From IMG/VR virus record IMGVR_UViG_3300034061_001841, positions 1 through 36,166 of that record: a stretch of DNA of 36,166 bases, one strand, 5' to 3'. The notes under the pieces are model-generated. The model did not search any database. It saw only the letters and a list, made by a program, of their open reading frames with translations, and was not told the origin of the DNA. The DNA comes from a virus. Each line of letters opens with the position of its first letter. Position 1 is the first letter of the stretch. A program made the position numbers and the translations under genes. This document shows positions 1 through 36,166 of this stretch, in pieces.

Positions 1-127
1 TGAGGTCCTTGAGGTATGCCCAGGCAACGCGCTTGGCCTGGTCACGCTGGGGCGCCAGGTACGCGAACTGCGGTTTTGGCAAGGCCGTCTCGAGCGCGCC
101 CAGCACCAGGTCCGCGCACATGGCCAC
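1..127. repeat. Left copy of the 127-bp terminal overlap
   Basis: These bases are identical to 36040-36166, so the window is a circular molecule opened inside the large terminase gene. The unit length is 36,039 bp. The length of exactly 127 bases equals a word size commonly used by short-read assemblers. I therefore read it as an assembly overlap and not as a phage terminal repeat. The terminase reading frame continues without interruption across the join, which supports true circularity or circular permutation of the packaged DNA. Confidence 0.95.
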
Positions 128-229
128 CGTCTTGCCCGCGCGCCGGTGGGCGACGACCACCGTCCAGCGCTTGTCGCGGTTGTGCAGGGGCTTGAACACG
201 TCCCGGGGTTGGTATTCGCGCAAGTCCAT
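1..229 (-). CDS. terL: Terminase large subunit, N-terminal part (continues across the circle junction)
   Basis: This is the beginning of the DNA-packaging motor gene; the rest is at 34931-36166. The ATG at 229-227 starts MDLREYQPRDVF, followed by a Walker A-type loop HRRAGKT at about residues 28-34, typical of TerL ATPases. Bases 1-127 duplicate the right end, so only 128-229 is unique to this side. After joining, the protein is 445 residues. The start overlaps the stop of the upstream small membrane gene by one base (TGATG), which suggests translational coupling. Reading this as a separate truncated gene would be an artefact of where the circle was cut. Confidence 0.93.
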   Translation of the reverse strand, partial: MDLREYQPRDVFKPLHNRDKRWTVVVAHRRAGKTVAMCADLVLGALETALPKPQFAYLAPQRDQAKRVAWAYLKDL

Positions 230-1573: not shown

Positions 1574-2185
1574 CTACGTGCCCTCGCCCTGCGCGCCTCC
1601 TGGGCCGCTCTGGCCAAGGCCCGGCGCCGCCGTGCCGGCACCCCCCGCCGGCGGCACCCCCTCGGCGACCCCTGCCGGCGACCCAGCCGGATCTTTAATC
1701 CGGTAACCACCGTCGGAATCCTGTTCTAGATCAAGCACTTGCGTGCGGGCCTCCGGAATTTGTGCCGTCGTTGTGCCGATGGACCGGCCGCCGAGCCAGC
1801 TCAGCTCGAGCTTGATGCCGCCCTCGACGTTCTGGTTGATTTGCGTCGGCAGCACCTTGGCCACCAGGCTGGTGAACGCGGCCCGATCGCTCTGCGTGCC
1901 CTCAGCCAGGCGCACCAGGTACTCGGCGCCGCCGACGGTGTCGAACGCCTCGAGCACGGCGTCGCGCAGGTTCGTCAGCTTGTTGCGCACGCCCTTCGGC
2001 CGCCCGCTCGGCGTCCTGACGCCGTTCAGCGGGCTCGTCGCCCCATTCTGTCCCTGTTTTTCTGCCGATTTGTTAGTGTCCACAAACGTAGGGATCTCAA
2101 GCTCCGGCATCGCTGTTTCCAGCGCCGCTCGATTGATCGCATCCTGCAACGCATCACCGCTCATCAGTTCAACTTTCTGCTCCAT
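1574..2185 (-). CDS. terS: Terminase small subunit-like protein (203 aa)
   Basis: Probable DNA-recognition subunit of the packaging machine. The start ATG 2185 has AGGAGA upstream. The central part contains GRPKGVRNK, followed by a helical stretch ending in KVLPTQINQ, a pattern I associate with small-terminase-like proteins of betaproteobacterial podo- and siphophages. The N-terminal 45 residues are acidic and variable. The C-terminal 40 are a Gly/Ala/Pro-rich tail, probably flexible. It lies about 1.3 kb upstream of terL in the same direction, with small coupled genes between. The assignment rests on motif memory and position. A direct homology search would settle it. Confidence 0.65.
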   Translation of the reverse strand: MEQKVELMSGDALQDAINRAALETAMPELEIPTFVDTNKSAEKQGQNGATSPLNGVRTPSGRPKGVRNKLTNLRDAVLEAFDTVGGAEYLVRLAEGTQSDRAAFTSLVAKVLPTQINQNVEGGIKLELSWLGGRSIGTTTAQIPEARTQVLDLEQDSDGGYRIKDPAGSPAGVAEGVPPAGGAGTAAPGLGQSGPGGAQGEGT

Positions 2186-2214: not shown

Positions 2215-2352
2215 CGGGACAGGGATTTAGCCGGGACATCGGGACACCCTATAGGGTGTGTCCCGATGTGTCCCGTCAAAATTGATCCCGGCGTCCCGAT
2301 CCGTCCCGTTCTGTCCCGGCAAATGTCCCGGCTGTGTCCCGGTCGTGTCCCG
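2215..2352. repeat. Iteron array: twelve TGTCCCG-type heptamers
   Basis: Forward copies begin at 2259, 2269, 2312, 2324, 2335 and 2346 (exact TGTCCCG), with variants at 2284, 2292 and 2302. Reverse copies (CGGGACA) begin at 2215, 2232 and 2240. Most neighbouring forward copies are 10-12 bp apart, about one helical turn. A perfect 16-bp palindrome (2244-2259) separates the reverse set from the forward set. The array fills the gap between divergently oriented terS and the small MerR-like gene. It could be a replication origin, a partition or packaging site, or an operator for the MerR-like protein. The repeats themselves are certain; the function is open. Confidence 0.93.
2244..2259. promoter_or_regulatory. 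Perfect 16-bp palindrome ACACCCTATAGGGTGT at the centre of the iteron array
   Basis: The sequence reads identically on both strands. It is the point at which the heptamers change orientation, so the whole array is a large imperfect inverted repeat. With the adjoining heptamers it could extrude a cruciform or form a strong hairpin in either transcript. The central CTATAGGG resembles part of a T7-type promoter, but no single-subunit RNA polymerase gene is present and the rest of that consensus is absent. Confidence 0.7.
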
Positions 2353-2598: not shown

Positions 2599-2738
2599 CA
2601 GTTTTGAGTGCACGGCGGGCAGGCAGGTCTGGCTGCCACCGGCTGGTCACGCCCAAAAATGGCGTCCCAGCGCGCGGCGTACTCAGCGTTCGACACGCTG
2701 AACGGGCGCGGTGCTGACCCTTTTCCGCCGTCACTCAT
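2544..2738 (-). CDS. Conserved small phage protein with C-terminal cysteines (64 aa)
   Basis: The N-terminus MSDGGKGSAPRPFSV and the following WDAIFG motif match a small protein family I have seen repeatedly in tailed phages, with no known function. The C-terminal third has four cysteines in CPPCTQNCQQGRDC, which could bind a metal. The start ATG 2738 overlaps the end of the primase-helicase gene by 8 bp, so the two are co-transcribed leftward. The last 55 bp are antisense to the MerR-like gene. Confidence 0.8.
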   Translation of the reverse strand: MSDGGKGSAPRPFSVSNAEYAARWDAIFGRDQPVAARPACPPCTQNCQQGRDCPANKADSSART

Positions 2739-4785
2739 GGCTGTCCTCCAACATTGACTTGACCACGCCGGCCGCGGACACGGCCACCAGCGACTTGCTC
2801 ATCAGGTTCTGAATGGCCCGGGCATAGGCCTTCTTGGCTGTGTCCTGCTTGTATTCCTTGCCAGCGCGCTGGGCGTCCTGGCCCAGGTGGTTGTAGAAGG
2901 CGTGACGCAGGTCGGTGTCCAGCATGGCGCCACTGGACTGCGCCAGCAGGCCCATGAGCAGCTGCTCGTTGCCGGCCACCTTTTGGGCCGCGTTGGTCAA
3001 GAGGCGTTGGGCGACATCGTTGTGCTCGGCAGCCAGGCTCGAGATCTCCTCACCGTCCTCATCGTGGCCCAGGACAATGCGCTCGAGCTTGAAGGCGATG
3101 TTGGCGGCCTTGTCGCCGTCTTTCTGCTTGATGAAGTCCAGGCGGGCCATCAGGCTGGTGCCGTCAGGCTTGTAGACGCCAGCCAGGAAGTCCACGTTGG
3201 CGATGATCGATGACGCGCCCCGCGGCCGCTCGGTGGCGCTGTGGCCTGAGTGGTGGATCACGACCACCGTGCATGTGAACCTGGCGCGAATGAGCGCGTT
3301 GATGTTGCGCAGGTAGGCACTGATGTCTGTGTTGCTGTTCTCGTCCCCGCTGAACGTCTGGGACAGGGTGTCGATGTAGATCAGGCTGGGCTTGTCTGGC
3401 AGGGCCGCGATCGATGATGCGAGCGCCTCAAGGTGGTCGAGTTCGCTCAACACCAGGGGCGTGACGCAGACATGGAAGTTGGGCGCCAGGTCCAGGTTGT
3501 GGTGCTGGTGCCAGGCCTGCACACGCCGGAAGATGCCGGCACCGCCCTCGGCGGCCACGTAGACCACGCCACCCTGCTTGGTCTTGTTGCCCATCCACTG
3601 CAGGCCGTGGGCAACGTGCAGGCAGTGGTCCAGGGCCACGAACGACTTGTAGGTGCCAGAGGCCCCGAACAGCATGCCGAGCGAGTCCTCAGGGATGACG
3701 TGCTTGACCTGCCACTTGATGGTGCCTGAGCGGGCCTGCAGCTGGGCCAGGTCCACCAGGAGGCCGTGATCCTGGCCAGGCTCACCTGGTGACCCAGGCT
3801 CATTGGGTGAGCCTGCCGTGCCTAGGTTGACCGTGATGGCGGGCGCCTTGCGCTCGGCTGGCGCGAACTTCTCGGCCGTCTTGACTGCCCGCGGGATCTC
3901 GGCACGCCGGGCTTCCCACCGCCGCAGCTCATCGATGTCCCGCGTGGCCGGCTTGACCATGTCCATGAGCGAGTACAGGTGCTCGACCGCGGCACCAGGG
4001 AACATGCCACCAGCCACCAGGTTGGCGGCCAGCTTGATGATGCTGTCGTGATAGACGCGCTGCGTCGGGTCGGGGTTGGTCAGGTCCGCCACCAGCTCGC
4101 CGGCGTGGTTGCCGGTGGCCGTGTGGGCGCTCAGCTTGGGCGCTGGTGCTGCTGCGCGCATCGCGTCCAGGTCCAGGCCCACAGCAGCGCACGCGTCCTC
4201 GAGGGACCAGCGTGTGTTGGGGGACCAGGCCTCCAGCTGCACTTGCCAGATGCCTGCGGCGCGCGGCTTGGTGTTGGATCCGATAGGCAGTCGGACATAC
4301 CTCACACAGGCGTTGCCTGACGCATCATTACTGCGCCCGCGGGCCGCCAATGCCGACATAATCCGGTCAACAAGCTGCCTGTTTCGGGTATCCGCATCCT
4401 CCCCATCGAGGAAGATACCTATCTGGAACTTCCCCGGGCTGGTCTGGATCGCGTAGCTGAAGCCCGTCACATCCGAGAGCTGGACATCATCTAGGACCAG
4501 TACTGCCAGGCGCACAAACGAATCTTTGCGCCTGACGATCTCACCGTCGCTGGTCGCCGTTAGAACGGCGGTGCAGTAATAGGTGTTGTCATGTCCAGCT
4601 TTATCGATCAGGGCCGCCTGTTGCGGCAGGCCCTTGTACGGCCGCCCCGCCCACACGCCCGGGTCAGCATTGCTCGGGTCAGCGCGAAAGCTGGCGACCC
4701 AGCCATGTGTGCCTGGCTCGAGCTCGCCGTAAACCTCGGCCAGGAAATCGGAGTTGGTCATCGTGGTGTTGCTCTCGATGACCAT
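2731..4785 (-). CDS. Phage primase-helicase fusion (RepB-like primase plus RepA/AAA_25-like ATPase), 684 aa
   Basis: Likely the phage replication initiator enzyme. Residues 1 to about 210 resemble RepB/archaeo-eukaryotic-type primase domains, with an acidic LVLDD strand near 97-100 and VRYVRLPIGSNTK near 161-172. A Pro/Gly linker (GSPNEPGSPGEPG, about 325-338) leads to a RecA-fold helicase: Walker A GASGTYKS at about 374-381, Walker B LIYIDT ending near residue 472, and VVVIHHSGH further on, as in hexameric RepA-like helicases. The start is taken at ATG 4785, which has AAGG upstream and lies just after the Cro-like gene stop; ATG 4761 is an alternative. It plays the role of lambda O and P. 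Some phage relatives are annotated simply as AAA family ATPase. Confidence 0.85.
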   Translation of the reverse strand: MVIESNTTMTNSDFLAEVYGELEPGTHGWVASFRADPSNADPGVWAGRPYKGLPQQAALIDKAGHDNTYYCTAVLTATSDGEIVRRKDSFVRLAVLVLDDVQLSDVTGFSYAIQTSPGKFQIGIFLDGEDADTRNRQLVDRIMSALAARGRSNDASGNACVRYVRLPIGSNTKPRAAGIWQVQLEAWSPNTRWSLEDACAAVGLDLDAMRAAAPAPKLSAHTATGNHAGELVADLTNPDPTQRVYHDSIIKLAANLVAGGMFPGAAVEHLYSLMDMVKPATRDIDELRRWEARRAEIPRAVKTAEKFAPAERKAPAITVNLGTAGSPNEPGSPGEPGQDHGLLVDLAQLQARSGTIKWQVKHVIPEDSLGMLFGASGTYKSFVALDHCLHVAHGLQWMGNKTKQGGVVYVAAEGGAGIFRRVQAWHQHHNLDLAPNFHVCVTPLVLSELDHLEALASSIAALPDKPSLIYIDTLSQTFSGDENSNTDISAYLRNINALIRARFTCTVVVIHHSGHSATERPRGASSIIANVDFLAGVYKPDGTSLMARLDFIKQKDGDKAANIAFKLERIVLGHDEDGEEISSLAAEHNDVAQRLLTNAAQKVAGNEQLLMGLLAQSSGAMLDTDLRHAFYNHLGQDAQRAGKEYKQDTAKKAYARAIQNLMSKSLVAVSAAGVVKSMLEDSHE

Positions 4786-4787
4786 GC

Positions 4788-5027
4788 TCAAGCCTTGACG
4801 TGTGTGAGCTCCCGCAGGGTGACAGGCACGCGGCTGCGTTTACCCATCGCGATGAGTTGGTCCCAGTACCGCTGGGGAATCACGCCCCCAGTGCCACCTG
4901 GTGACGGCGCACACCAGCGCGAGAGCGTGCTCTTGTTGATGCCGAGCTCGTCTGCCACAGCGGCCTTGCCGCCCAACTTCTCAATCAACGGATAGGCCGG
5001 GGCCAGCATATGAATCGTGGGGATCAT
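4788..5027 (-). CDS. Cro-like helix-turn-helix regulator (79 aa)
   Basis: A small DNA-binding protein divergent from the repressor. The HTH is LIEKLGGKAAVADELGINKS, followed by STLSRW and a proline-rich turn. A KR-containing basic segment lies near the end. The motif IEKLGG with later VIPQRYW resembles the carph-isopro/Cro-like family of phage regulators. ATG 5027 has AGGAGA upstream. It is first in the leftward early operon and is followed directly by the primase-helicase, exactly the place of Cro or CII in lambdoid phages. Whether it acts as Cro or as a CII-type activator cannot be told. Confidence 0.82.
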   Translation of the reverse strand: MIPTIHMLAPAYPLIEKLGGKAAVADELGINKSTLSRWCAPSPGGTGGVIPQRYWDQLIAMGKRSRVPVTLRELTHVKA

Positions 5028-5046
5028 GTTGTTTCTCCTAATGCAT

Positions 5047-5059
5047 TGCGTTTGACGCA
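5047..5059. promoter_or_regulatory. Operator-like dyad TGCGTTTGACGCA in the repressor/Cro-like intergenic region
   Basis: This is a perfect inverted repeat, TGCGT and ACGCA with a TTG centre. It lies 20 bp upstream of the Cro-like start codon, between the two divergent regulators. The odd-length centre is usual for phage repressor operators. The dyad after the repressor gene (5705-5719) has the same TTG centre but different half-sites. Binding by either regulator is inferred from position alone. Confidence 0.55.
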
Positions 5060-5067
5060 TCAGCGAG

Positions 5068-5097
5068 TTTATGTCAGGCTGCACGATGACTAGTCAC
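5068..5097 (-). promoter_or_regulatory. Candidate leftward early promoter overlapped by palindrome TGACTAGTCA
   Basis: On the minus strand, GTGACT (5097-5092) and CATAAA (5073-5068) are separated by 18 bp, and each matches sigma70 consensus at four of six positions. The -35 hexamer overlaps the perfect 10-bp palindrome TGACTAGTCA at 5087-5096, a natural place for an operator. Transcription from here would reach the Cro-like gene with its AGGAGA site and then the primase-helicase. A weak rightward repressor promoter may overlap it. Confidence 0.45.
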
Positions 5098-32993: not shown

Positions 32994-34934
32994 TCACTGC
33001 AGCGGGGGCATGCCACCACCCACGGGCGGCATCTGGGGGGCGGCTGGCGGCAGCTGCGGCTGGGGCTGCATCATCCCCATGTGCACCGCCTTCATGCGCG
33101 CATCCATCTCGGTGTCGGCCGCCTTGGCCTGGCGCTCGCGTGCGCCAGCCTGCTTCTCGGCCACTTCAGCCTGCTGCAAGGGTGACGGCTGCGGGGGCTG
33201 GATGCCCTGCTGCTTCAAGCCGGCGATCGCCTGGTCCAGCACCGACTCGATCTGGCTCGAGACGCGGAACTTGCTGATTGCCCACTGCAGCATGGACAGC
33301 AGCACGGGTGCGGCGCCCGGCACGCTCTGCGCCATCGGGGCCACTTGCGACACGAACGCGCCCAGGCCCTGCATGAACTGCACGGCGGCGTCGCGCTCTT
33401 GCGCCTGGTCGAGGGCCGCCATCGAGTCAGCCTCGATGGTGATGCGGTACTCGCGCATCTCCTCCTCTTTCAGGAGCTGAATGCCAGCCATCGCCAGGGG
33501 CGCGTCAGGCGTGCGCTCGATGTTCGAACGCCGAATGATGGTTTCGGGCTGCCAGTGCTTGCAGATGATCTCGGCCTTGATGCGCAGGGCTTGCGAGATC
33601 CAGTCAGCGATGTAGAACTGCATCAGCTGCACACGCGTGCTGCCGAACTGCGCCTTGATCTGCTGTGCGGTGGCCGTCTCGCTGGCCTTGCTCGAGCCGC
33701 GCATCACGTCAGAGATGCCCAGCACCTCGTAGATCTGCATCACCTTGTCCTGGCGGTACTGGCGCAGGGAGTTGATGCAGTTGACGATCATGTCGATCGG
33801 CACGAAATCGACTTTGCCCTTGATGCCGCCGGACTCAGCGAACATCGCCCAGTTGTCCACGGGCACCAGCTGGTTCTCGACCGCTTGCGAGAACACGCGC
33901 TGCACGCCGTCAGCCGCCTTGTCGTACACGCCAGCCACCTTCGCCGCACGCGTGAGCCAGGTGATGCGGGTGTTGATCTCATCGAGCTCGTTGAACTGGT
34001 CCTGCGCGAACACGTAGTCAGCACGGGGCATGAAGTTCGATGTGGTGACGTTGGCCGCCAGGGGCTTGGGACACGGAAAGAACCCGTCCAAGCGCAGTGG
34101 GTCTTCCTTCACGTCCAGGATCACATCAGCACCGCGGGCGTACCAATAGACTTTCTTGTTCTCCTTGCACCAGATCTCGTAGACCTCAGCCTTGTTCCAC
34201 GGGTCGTGCTTGGGCGTCTCGGTGTTGGTGTTCTTGTCCGACGTTTTGTTGCCCTGCAGGGGCACGATGCGGGCAATCTCTTCACCGAACCGCTCGACCA
34301 GCTGGTCCTTGGTCATGTAGACGCGGCGCGCGACCCAGCGCACCTCGGGCCAGATACGCGCCGGTGACCAGAAGAAGTCGTCCCAGAACACGTAATCGAC
34401 GGGCGCATCCTCATCGACAATGCGCTCGGCCTCAGTGGCCGGCGAGAGCTCCTGGCCCAGCTCGTCAAACACGGCCGGCACTTCGTACTGCTCAGTCTTG
34501 ACCTCGTAGCGCAGCCAGATCTGGCCCATGCCGACGACCAACCAGTCCTCGATGCCGTTACGCACGGCCGCGTCCCAGGCCGAGGTGTCGTCATCGAACC
34601 CGCGGTTGAGGATCCGCTGCAACATCGTGCCGGCCACACGGGCCTGGTCATCCTCGTAGTCCTGGAACGAGCGCGACACATCCGCTTTCGGGGGCCGCGC
34701 ATACAGCATCGACAGCAGCACCTTCATCGTGGACCAGAACAGGTTCACGCGGGACTGGTCCTTGCCAAAGTCATCGCGCTTGTCCAGGTAGCGATGCACG
34801 ATGCGCTTGGCATCGTCATGGAACTTCTGCAGCTCCTGCTTGGAGGCGTCGATCTCAGTGCTCCAGCGCTGCGCAAGCCCAGCGGGTGTGTTCTGAAAAT
34901 CGCTCGCGCTGGTGATTCGTCCTGAGTCCATCAT
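32994..34934 (-). CDS. Portal protein (646 aa)
   Basis: DNA entry and exit ring of the head. It begins MMDSGRITSASDF at ATG 34934 (AAGGA upstream), whose next ATG overlaps the TerL stop. Typical portal features are present: WSTMKVLLSMLYARPP in the first quarter, VDYVFWDDFFWSPAR with the following WVARRVYMTKDQL, then PRADYVFAQDQFNELDEINTR and a long helical stem. Residues about 570-646 are a Gln/Ala/Pro-rich tail. Size fits podovirus portals (about 550-720). Directly downstream of TerL, as usual. Confidence 0.93.
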   Translation of the reverse strand: MMDSGRITSASDFQNTPAGLAQRWSTEIDASKQELQKFHDDAKRIVHRYLDKRDDFGKDQSRVNLFWSTMKVLLSMLYARPPKADVSRSFQDYEDDQARVAGTMLQRILNRGFDDDTSAWDAAVRNGIEDWLVVGMGQIWLRYEVKTEQYEVPAVFDELGQELSPATEAERIVDEDAPVDYVFWDDFFWSPARIWPEVRWVARRVYMTKDQLVERFGEEIARIVPLQGNKTSDKNTNTETPKHDPWNKAEVYEIWCKENKKVYWYARGADVILDVKEDPLRLDGFFPCPKPLAANVTTSNFMPRADYVFAQDQFNELDEINTRITWLTRAAKVAGVYDKAADGVQRVFSQAVENQLVPVDNWAMFAESGGIKGKVDFVPIDMIVNCINSLRQYRQDKVMQIYEVLGISDVMRGSSKASETATAQQIKAQFGSTRVQLMQFYIADWISQALRIKAEIICKHWQPETIIRRSNIERTPDAPLAMAGIQLLKEEEMREYRITIEADSMAALDQAQERDAAVQFMQGLGAFVSQVAPMAQSVPGAAPVLLSMLQWAISKFRVSSQIESVLDQAIAGLKQQGIQPPQPSPLQQAEVAEKQAGARERQAKAADTEMDARMKAVHMGMMQPQPQLPPAAPQMPPVGGGMPPLQ

Positions 34935-36166
34935 CCGATCCTTTGCGACTGGGTGGGCGCGGTGTCCCAAATGTCTTCAAGTGAGAAGGCATAGTTCGCC
35001 CCCCCGGCCTGCTTTGGTGCGATTTTAGAACCCGCTTGCTTTTTTCCCACCACTGGGCGCGCAGCCAGGGCCAAGTACCTGAACGCGTCCGCCGCGTGCG
35101 AGTGTTGGTCGTGTTTCGGCCGATTTCGGTAGGTCTGGGTCCGCTCATCCCACTCGCGCATGTAGGCGCGCAGGTGGTCCACCCCGTCATAGGTGGGTGT
35201 CTCATCAAACCGGCAGTGCGGCAGGATCAGCCTGGCGGCCTCAATCCCGTCCTGCAGGCTCATCTCAGTCACCAGGCGCGGCGTGATGCCGGCGGCCAGG
35301 AACTGCTCGATGATTGACTTGCCCGTCTGCAGCGACTTGGCCCGGGCGTCATGCGGCAGCCAGACCTGGCCGACCTTGTAGGGGCGGGACTTCACCCAGT
35401 CGATGTAGTGCCCGATCGCCTGGTTGTCGTCCTCCATGAACTCGACCACCCGATACCCGTCACCCGGCTCCTGCCAGCCCCACCAGCTGCAGGAGTCGGT
35501 GTAGCCCAAGTCCGCCACCAAGTGCACCGGCAGCTCGCGATCGACCGGGAACAAGCCAATGCGGCCCTGCTCATACGCCTCACCAATCTGCCGGGCGTAG
35601 TACGCACCGGGCACCGCGGCGTCGAAGCTGCACTCGTACTCGACCTCGAACGCCTCGGGCGTCATCTGGGCTTTGGCGTCGCGCAGTTCGTCGGGGTGAA
35701 TGATTCCTGTCTTGCTGGCCGGCAGCTCCAGCAGCATGTGAGTCTTTGGGTTTAACCGCGCCTCCTCACGCAGGTTCCAGAACAGGTTCTTGCCCTTGGG
35801 TGTGCCGGCAAAGATCGCCCAGCCGCGGCGGTCCGACAGGGCGGGGCGCAGCACCGTGTACCAGGCGCTCGGGCGGATGTCGCCGACCTCATCGAGCACC
35901 ACGCCGTCAAAGTACATGCCGCGCAGGGCGTCGTAGTTGTCGGCGCCCGCCACGTAGATCGTGCTCTCGCCACCGTGCCCGTTGTGCATCGAGAGCTTGA
36001 GCTCGGACTCGTTCGGTGCCTTAGACCACATCGGACGCGTGAGGTCCTTGAGGTATGCCCAGGCAACGCGCTTGGCCTGGTCACGCTGGGGCGCCAGGTA
36101 CGCGAACTGCGGTTTTGGCAAGGCCGTCTCGAGCGCGCCCAGCACCAGGTCCGCGCACATGGCCAC
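34931..36166 (-). CDS. terL: Terminase large subunit, main part (joins 1-229)
   Basis: Packaging ATPase and nuclease. The frame is open to the right edge and continues at position 128 after circularisation, giving 445 residues starting at 229. Walker B FDGVVLDEVGD lies at about residues 120-130 of the joined protein. The coupling motif AIFAGTPKGKN follows. The nuclease domain shows HLVADLGYTDS (about D253) and a C-terminal HSHAADAFRYLAL (about D394), two of the acidic metal ligands. The stop overlaps the portal start by TGATG. The short, T4/P22-like layout and absence of a visible cos site leave headful packaging as the likelier mode. Confidence 0.95.
   Translation of the reverse strand: MAMCADLVLGALETALPKPQFAYLAPQRDQAKRVAWAYLKDLTRPMWSKAPNESELKLSMHNGHGGESTIYVAGADNYDALRGMYFDGVVLDEVGDIRPSAWYTVLRPALSDRRGWAIFAGTPKGKNLFWNLREEARLNPKTHMLLELPASKTGIIHPDELRDAKAQMTPEAFEVEYECSFDAAVPGAYYARQIGEAYEQGRIGLFPVDRELPVHLVADLGYTDSCSWWGWQEPGDGYRVVEFMEDDNQAIGHYIDWVKSRPYKVGQVWLPHDARAKSLQTGKSIIEQFLAAGITPRLVTEMSLQDGIEAARLILPHCRFDETPTYDGVDHLRAYMREWDERTQTYRNRPKHDQHSHAADAFRYLALAARPVVGKKQAGSKIAPKQAGGANYAFSLEDIWDTAPTQSQRIG
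36040..36166. repeat. Right copy of the 127-bp terminal overlap
   Basis: Exact copy of positions 1-127. Both copies lie inside the terminase large subunit gene and encode its segment just after the Walker A motif. Joining the two ends gives one continuous 445-codon gene. Confidence 0.95.

Follow-up and report, generated by a model that had tools for sequence, protein, structure and literature searches.

Organization of the locus

The window analysed here spans all 36,166 bases of a virus record from IMG/VR, with genes of its own for terminase, portal and tail proteins. The gene for the large terminase subunit is split over the two ends (window positions 2-229 and 34931-36166), and the record therefore probably represents a complete phage genome, either circular or circularly permuted. 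Near its left end, an array of short repeats is followed by genes for a MerR/BldC-like protein, a primase-helicase and a Cro/XRE-like protein (Table 1).

Table 1. Features of the window around the repeat array.
Feature	Position	Strand	Basis or remark
Small-terminase-like protein gene, 203 aa, adjoining the array	1574..2185	-	Function assigned from position and from homologues beside terminase genes only
Iteron array, 12 TGTCCCG-type heptamers, predicted replication origin	2215..2352	.	Single-strand DNA fold, z = -5.1
Perfect 16-bp dyad ACACCCTATAGGGTGT at the switch in word orientation	2244..2259	.	In many relatives, a CTATAG/CTTTAG-centred core flanked by inverted words
MerR/BldC-like protein gene, 58 aa	2422..2598	+	Pfam MerR, E=2.8e-11; lies in an additional ~380 bp that separate the array from the helicase stop
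Primase-helicase gene, 686 aa, RepA-like (AAA_25, SF4) helicase domain; predicted initiator reading the array	2731..4791	-	Pfam AAA_25, E=5e-36; the array tracks this gene
Helicase C-terminal winged-helix-like domain, residues about 604-680	2752..2982	-	AlphaFold2 model
Predicted recognition helix QDTAKKAYARAIQNLMS, residues 649-665	2797..2847	-	AlphaFold2 model; the equivalent helix in relatives carries word specificity
Cro/XRE-like HTH gene, 98 aa, overlapping the helicase start	4788..5084	-	Several relatives have a small HTH gene of this sort ahead of the helicase

The twelve heptamers counted in the preliminary description, three reversed and nine forward, were all found. The reversed ones are exact copies of TGTCCCG on the minus strand (at 2215, 2232 and 2240); on the plus strand, six copies are exact (2259, 2269, 2312, 2324, 2335 and 2346) and three carry one or two mismatches (2284, 2292 and 2302). 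Start-to-start distances between forward neighbours are 10, 15, 8, 10, 10, 12, 11 and 11 bp, bearing out the description of most of them as 10-12 bp apart (six of eight). The palindrome reported at the change of orientation is likewise present and perfect, and the 58-aa MerR-type open reading frame runs against its neighbours as described.

The array is far above chance. Sixteen exact TGTCCCG words occur in the whole window, nine of them inside these 138 bp; shuffling the whole window gave a mean of 6.75 and never reached 16, and in 40 first-order Markov copies of the window the densest 138 bp held 2. Counted as hexamers, CGGGAC reaches 11 copies in the best 160-bp stretch while elsewhere no 6-mer exceeds 5. 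As single-stranded DNA, the array folds far better than its shuffles, a result to be expected since inverted words surround the dyad.

In a Foldseek comparison, the nearest solved fold of the helicase domain was RepA of plasmid RSF1010 (1olo, E=1.3e-10; top matches 1olo, 1nlf and 1g8y). The primase part gave only a sub-threshold match to RepB_primase (E=0.016). The MerR-like protein matches the NCBIfam BldC family with E=4.5e-14, under that family's cut-off, and its closest matches in described phages are Cro-annotated proteins of Giles-like mycobacteriophages (49% identity; Mycobacterium phage Giles, NC_009993, 36985-37137). The HTH protein that precedes the helicase has a sub-threshold NCBIfam match to the carph-isopro domain.

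The array follows the helicase gene

Relatives of the locus were gathered with three queries: the MerR-like protein, the small-terminase-like protein and the AAA_25 helicase. A GGGACA array was a consistent feature of the helicase relatives only, in which it lies right behind the helicase stop codon, even at 28-36% identity. Among named phages with such helicases, nine carry arrays at the same place in different words, including TTTGTAG (Roseobacter phage CRP-811), GTATAAA (CRP-821), GGCTGGAAA (CRP-406), GGTACA (Idiomarinaceae phage 1N2-2), GGTTCA (Alteromonas phage PB15) and CGGACA (Vibrio phage 1.076.O).

Wider profile searches yielded 294 loci that could be scored for a helicase and its downstream DNA, 242 of which had been chosen purely by helicase similarity. 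A locus was scored as having an array if some 6-mer was present six or more times in the region from -20 to +400 relative to the helicase stop. By this definition, 201 of the 242 loci carry an array, which is missing in the other 17%. With the same threshold, the control regions of all loci scored about 6-7% (16/250 at +800 to +1220; 18/276 within the helicase gene itself). In the relatives, the distance from the helicase stop to the first word has a median of 3 bp, as against ~380 bp in the window, where the MerR insertion intervenes. Spacing between words of the same orientation peaks at 9-10 bp, and more than 50 different words are represented among the related loci.

Many arrays are centred on a dyad in which pyrimidines precede and purines follow CT(A/T)AG. 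Its strict core was found in 81 of 238 arrays, compared to 5 of 233 in-gene and 1 of 195 downstream controls, and inverted words flank the core in 80 of these 81 arrays. A relaxed search detected a dyad in 188 of 238 arrays, yet also in 72 of 225 controls; we thus rely on the strict figure alone. The contigs bearing arrays are assigned to many bacterial phyla; most were assembled from metagenomes and some may be misplaced. Altogether, hundreds of related phages share the helicase-array arrangement, with dozens of words.

The TGTCCCG word alone does not identify the system, because it is also found beside other types of phage initiator lacking this helicase. When 39 TGTCCCG loci with 3 kb of sequence on both sides were examined, 15 had a RepA-like helicase, in every case within 600 bp. 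At ten loci (L015, L017, L027, L038, L040, L059, L087, L094, L107 and L115) the array lies within an open reading frame and is read in frame as SGT-, RDT- or GQ-rich peptides. The array-bearing frame of L027 has weak matches to MarR_2 and DnaT, and most of the others are similar to it in sequence, which suggests that these genes encode O/DnaT-like phage initiators and themselves contain the origin. At four further loci (L016, L067, L099 and L121), TGTCCCG arrays lie within ~200 bp of genes for VapE-domain-type helicases (Pfam E about 1e-69 for L016 and L067); by their sequences, these look like a third class of initiator with the same word.

The word changes with a helix in the C-terminal domain

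The C-terminal domain of the helicase matched no Pfam family. In the AlphaFold2 model of the window protein, helices at residues 608-618, 625-643 and 649-665 alternate with strands at 622-624, 669-671 and 676-679 (local pLDDT mostly 83-92). The corresponding domain of the big clade of 121 relatives is modelled with a pLDDT of 90.7 as helices at 12-26, 40-49, 55-61 and 70-76 followed by a wing at 80-89; in this compact fold, the segment LSEATAKQYL forms the third helix. Comparison with PDB folds gave nothing significant (best E=0.12), the top matches being mostly winged-helix regulators. By the topology of the models, the domain would be winged-helix-like.

To relate this domain to the array, pairs of loci counted as same-word when each word was present four or more times in the array of its partner, and as different-word when it was present no more than once. 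At 90-100% identity in the ATPase core, the median identity of the C-terminal region is 0.87 for same-word pairs (n=144) and 0.55 for different-word pairs (n=73; p=3e-22). The values are 0.76 and 0.55 at 80-90% core identity, and 0.60 and 0.45 at 70-80%; below 50%, the contrast is small or absent. In leave-one-out tests from which neighbours with a core identity of 0.85 or more were excluded, the word was predicted correctly in 65% of cases from the recognition helix, where accuracy was highest, in 18% from the ATPase core and in 7% by chance. The clade to which the window belongs comprises few loci (8 that include the C-terminal domain), and the helix there is unlike that of the big clade, from which most of the residue-level statistics derive. 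An independent clade of Rhodobacterales type shows parallel changes, with SESAARTAF accompanying CGTCACA, SESAKRKAF accompanying CGTTACC and SESAHRMAF accompanying CGTAAC.

The array as a proposed replication origin

We propose, with a probability of about 0.86 and from sequence comparisons, that the array is the replication origin of the phage, to which the phage-encoded primase-helicase binds through its C-terminal domain. Among the functions that the preliminary description had offered, the origin is the one that gains support, from the link to the helicase, from the covariation of word and helix and from the DnaA boxes of relatives; coating by the MerR-like protein and packaging do not. 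Iteron origins in general have direct repeats at helical spacing beside an initiator gene, and in these phages such repeats lie beside the gene of the helicase, the predicted initiator. The fusion of the helicase and the layout of the locus make an iteron origin the most economical reading.

The mechanism that we envisage is as follows. The fused primase-helicase would bind the heptamers through its winged-helix-like domain, and the predicted recognition helix would read the word. With copies loaded on both inverted halves, two helicase rings might come to lie on either side of the CTATAG dyad at the centre, which they could open or extrude and at which they could prime replication. Direct binding, melting of the dyad, ring loading and priming are all inferred steps.

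Of 202 array regions, 35 contain the E. coli-type DnaA box TTATCCACA, with 76 copies in all that nearly always adjoin the words on one side or the other; among control regions, the box is present in 6 of 169 and 0 of 195. Such boxes were seen at L123:1151, L124:5859 and L137:5683 and downstream of the helicase at L309 and L271. None was found at the window array; hence either host DnaA is not generally required or the sites in the window are degenerate. The GC-skew check proposed earlier for locating the start of replication disclosed no clear turn at the array.

Alternative readings

The array might instead be a transcriptional operator with no origin role; the protein binding it could be the C-terminal domain of the helicase, the small Cro-like HTH protein or a host protein. 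It is intergenic and lies upstream of a leftward gene, and ahead of the helicase there is often a gene for a small HTH protein that may regulate it. However, the Roseobacter phages have arrays yet no annotated small HTH gene before the helicase, and the best upstream open reading frame separates same-word from different-word pairs by a modest gap (68% versus 56%), where the recognition helix differs sharply. Moreover, near-identical phages differ in their words, which excludes a single invariant host protein as the reader, and many arrays are flanked by DnaA boxes. We regard an operator without origin function as very unlikely.

Another possibility is that the word and the C-terminal domain are coupled by mere physical linkage, being neighbours exchanged jointly by recombination, while something else reads the array. 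Mosaic exchange is indeed real in these phages. Nevertheless, the contrast between same-word and different-word pairs, computed per column in the clade of 121, amounts to ~0.06 for the core and 0.12-0.22 for the linker, has its maximum of 0.58 over LSEATAKQYL and declines to ~0.18 ahead of the C-terminus (helix minus C-terminal end, 0.26-0.41 by bootstrap over loci). Linkage alone is inadequate because the contrast drops at the C-terminal end, the part nearest the array. The helicases of loci L309 and L271 make the same point. They differ at 27 of about 680 residues, but within the last 190 only by V635Q, A641S and T642P, all in or beside the recognition helix; linker and end are identical. 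From L309 to L271 the array changes from GGAAC-type to GGTAAC-type words, with its flanks conserved, including DnaA-box-like TTATCCACA motifs. As far as the two sequences tell, changes at three positions, within the helix or next to it, would appear to alter the word. Linkage as the whole explanation is very unlikely.

The preliminary description had the 58-aa MerR/BldC-like protein coat the array and control its own gene or late genes. The MerR-like gene does adjoin the array, divergent from the small-terminase-like gene, and the protein falls in the same broad fold class as BldC and lambda Xis, which bind direct repeats. However, a phmmer search with the window protein matched only the window itself, as positive control (plus its two sub-loci), and L003, and no MerR-like frame occurred in the DNA covered at any of the 237 other array loci. 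None was found in 22 whole viral records either, a set with no positive control. The closest full helicase relative, L037 (66% identical), has the same word as the window in an array 3 bp beyond the helicase stop, followed by a small-terminase-like gene, and the MerR gene is absent from the locus. Conversely, L003, the sole relative of the MerR gene found in viral contigs, has no array within ~1 kb of that gene. The search of related phages suggested earlier therefore did not find gene and array together, the outcome that had been named as speaking against the proposal, and we consider a coating role highly improbable. Since the gene is absent from the 237 other array loci and from L037, and since ~380 bp containing it part helicase and array in the window, it is best read as an accessory insertion between the two, probably a later one, outside the origin. 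At L126, unrelated DNA likewise separates helicase and array.

That the array could be a packaging site of pac or cos type, read by the adjacent small-terminase-like protein, is hardly tenable: small terminases can bind repeated sites, and the array lies directly upstream of the gene in the window, L037 and L126, but at L123 an 86% identical protein sits beside an array whose TGCAC words are quite different. Many relatives have other genes after the array that follows the helicase, and the word covaries with the helicase helix.

Natural swaps also bear on the N-terminal half of the replication protein. Several loci with relatives of the small-terminase-like protein (L124, L128-L130, L133, L134 and L137) combine a window-like N-terminal half with another helicase and C-terminal part. 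Their arrays belong to a different iteron family, consist of TGCACA, GGTGCA, GATGCA or GAAGCA words around a GC-rich hairpin and lie farther downstream, beside the small-terminase-like gene. No such array was seen at L127, which has a mosaic protein of the same kind. Because the same parts go with other words at L123 and in the relatives with swapped helicases, neither the small-terminase-like protein nor the N-terminal half would seem to set the word.

Significance

We lean towards viewing these loci as a very widespread and so far undescribed class of tailed-phage origin, in which a fused RepA-type helicase reads the iteron word with a small winged-helix domain of no described family, and in which dozens of seemingly orthogonal specificities have arisen as word and helix changed together. 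The process could possibly have been driven by satellites, or by incompatibility in replication when phages co-infect a cell. If this is true, origins and initiator specificity could be assigned in hundreds of phages whose origins are unannotated. The more than 50 pairs of helix and word would also form a natural library toward a protein-DNA recognition code and toward orthogonal, mutually exclusive replicons. An evolutionary question is raised as well, namely why near-identical phages keep swapping the password of their origin.

Comparison with known systems

The mechanism is known in kind, from SaPI Rep, the PICIs, P4 alpha, RSF1010 and pRN1. For the array with RepA-like phage helicases, that is the SF4 RepA-type layout across tailed phages with its diversification of helix and word, no description was found in the open-access literature.

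The pri-rep-ori layout of SaPIs and PICIs is very like the one found here: there, as in SCCmec with Cch2, the array lies right 3' of the initiator helicase gene. A passage in PMC7581432, citing Ubeda 2007, has SaPI Rep recognise short iterons through its C-terminal domain, with the origin directly downstream of its gene. In the phages, the strong covariation of word and helix is consistent with the same manner of reading. SaPI Rep and Cch/Cch2, however, are DUF927 or D5/Primase_Cterm helicases of satellites and islands, whereas the present ones are AAA_25 SF4 RepA-type proteins of tailed phages. PICI origins have two iteron sets around a central region (PMC6092414). Their centre is AT-rich, while the phage arrays centre on a CTATAG-type dyad and use dozens of words.

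The alpha protein of satellite phage P4 has a Toprim primase, unlike the phage helicase described here, and its helicase class differs from the RepA type. No PDB sequence matched the whole window helicase, and the C-terminal profile gave no significant match that would relate the two. In the window model, a putative primase, the helicase and a predicted winged helix would follow one another in a single protein; the primase match is sub-threshold (E=0.016) and the winged helix is predicted by topology. In P4, a single protein binds the origin repeats by a winged helix, unwinds and primes (PMC4234260). The archaeal plasmid pRN1 has a small repressor gene, then a fused primase-helicase-winged helix, with an origin stem-loop just downstream (PMC4234260), a gene order like that of the phages. 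It differs from them in its SF3 helicase and in its large stem-loop without iterons, to which specific binding could not be shown (PMC4234260).

Finally, the IncQ plasmid RSF1010, whose RepA-type hexameric helicase is the closest solved fold, has an origin with iterons plus hairpins. Helicase, primase and iteron binder are three proteins in that plasmid (PMC4234260). In contrast to its separate RepC binder, specificity in the phages tracks the helicase's own C-terminal domain, in one protein that probably includes the primase as well.
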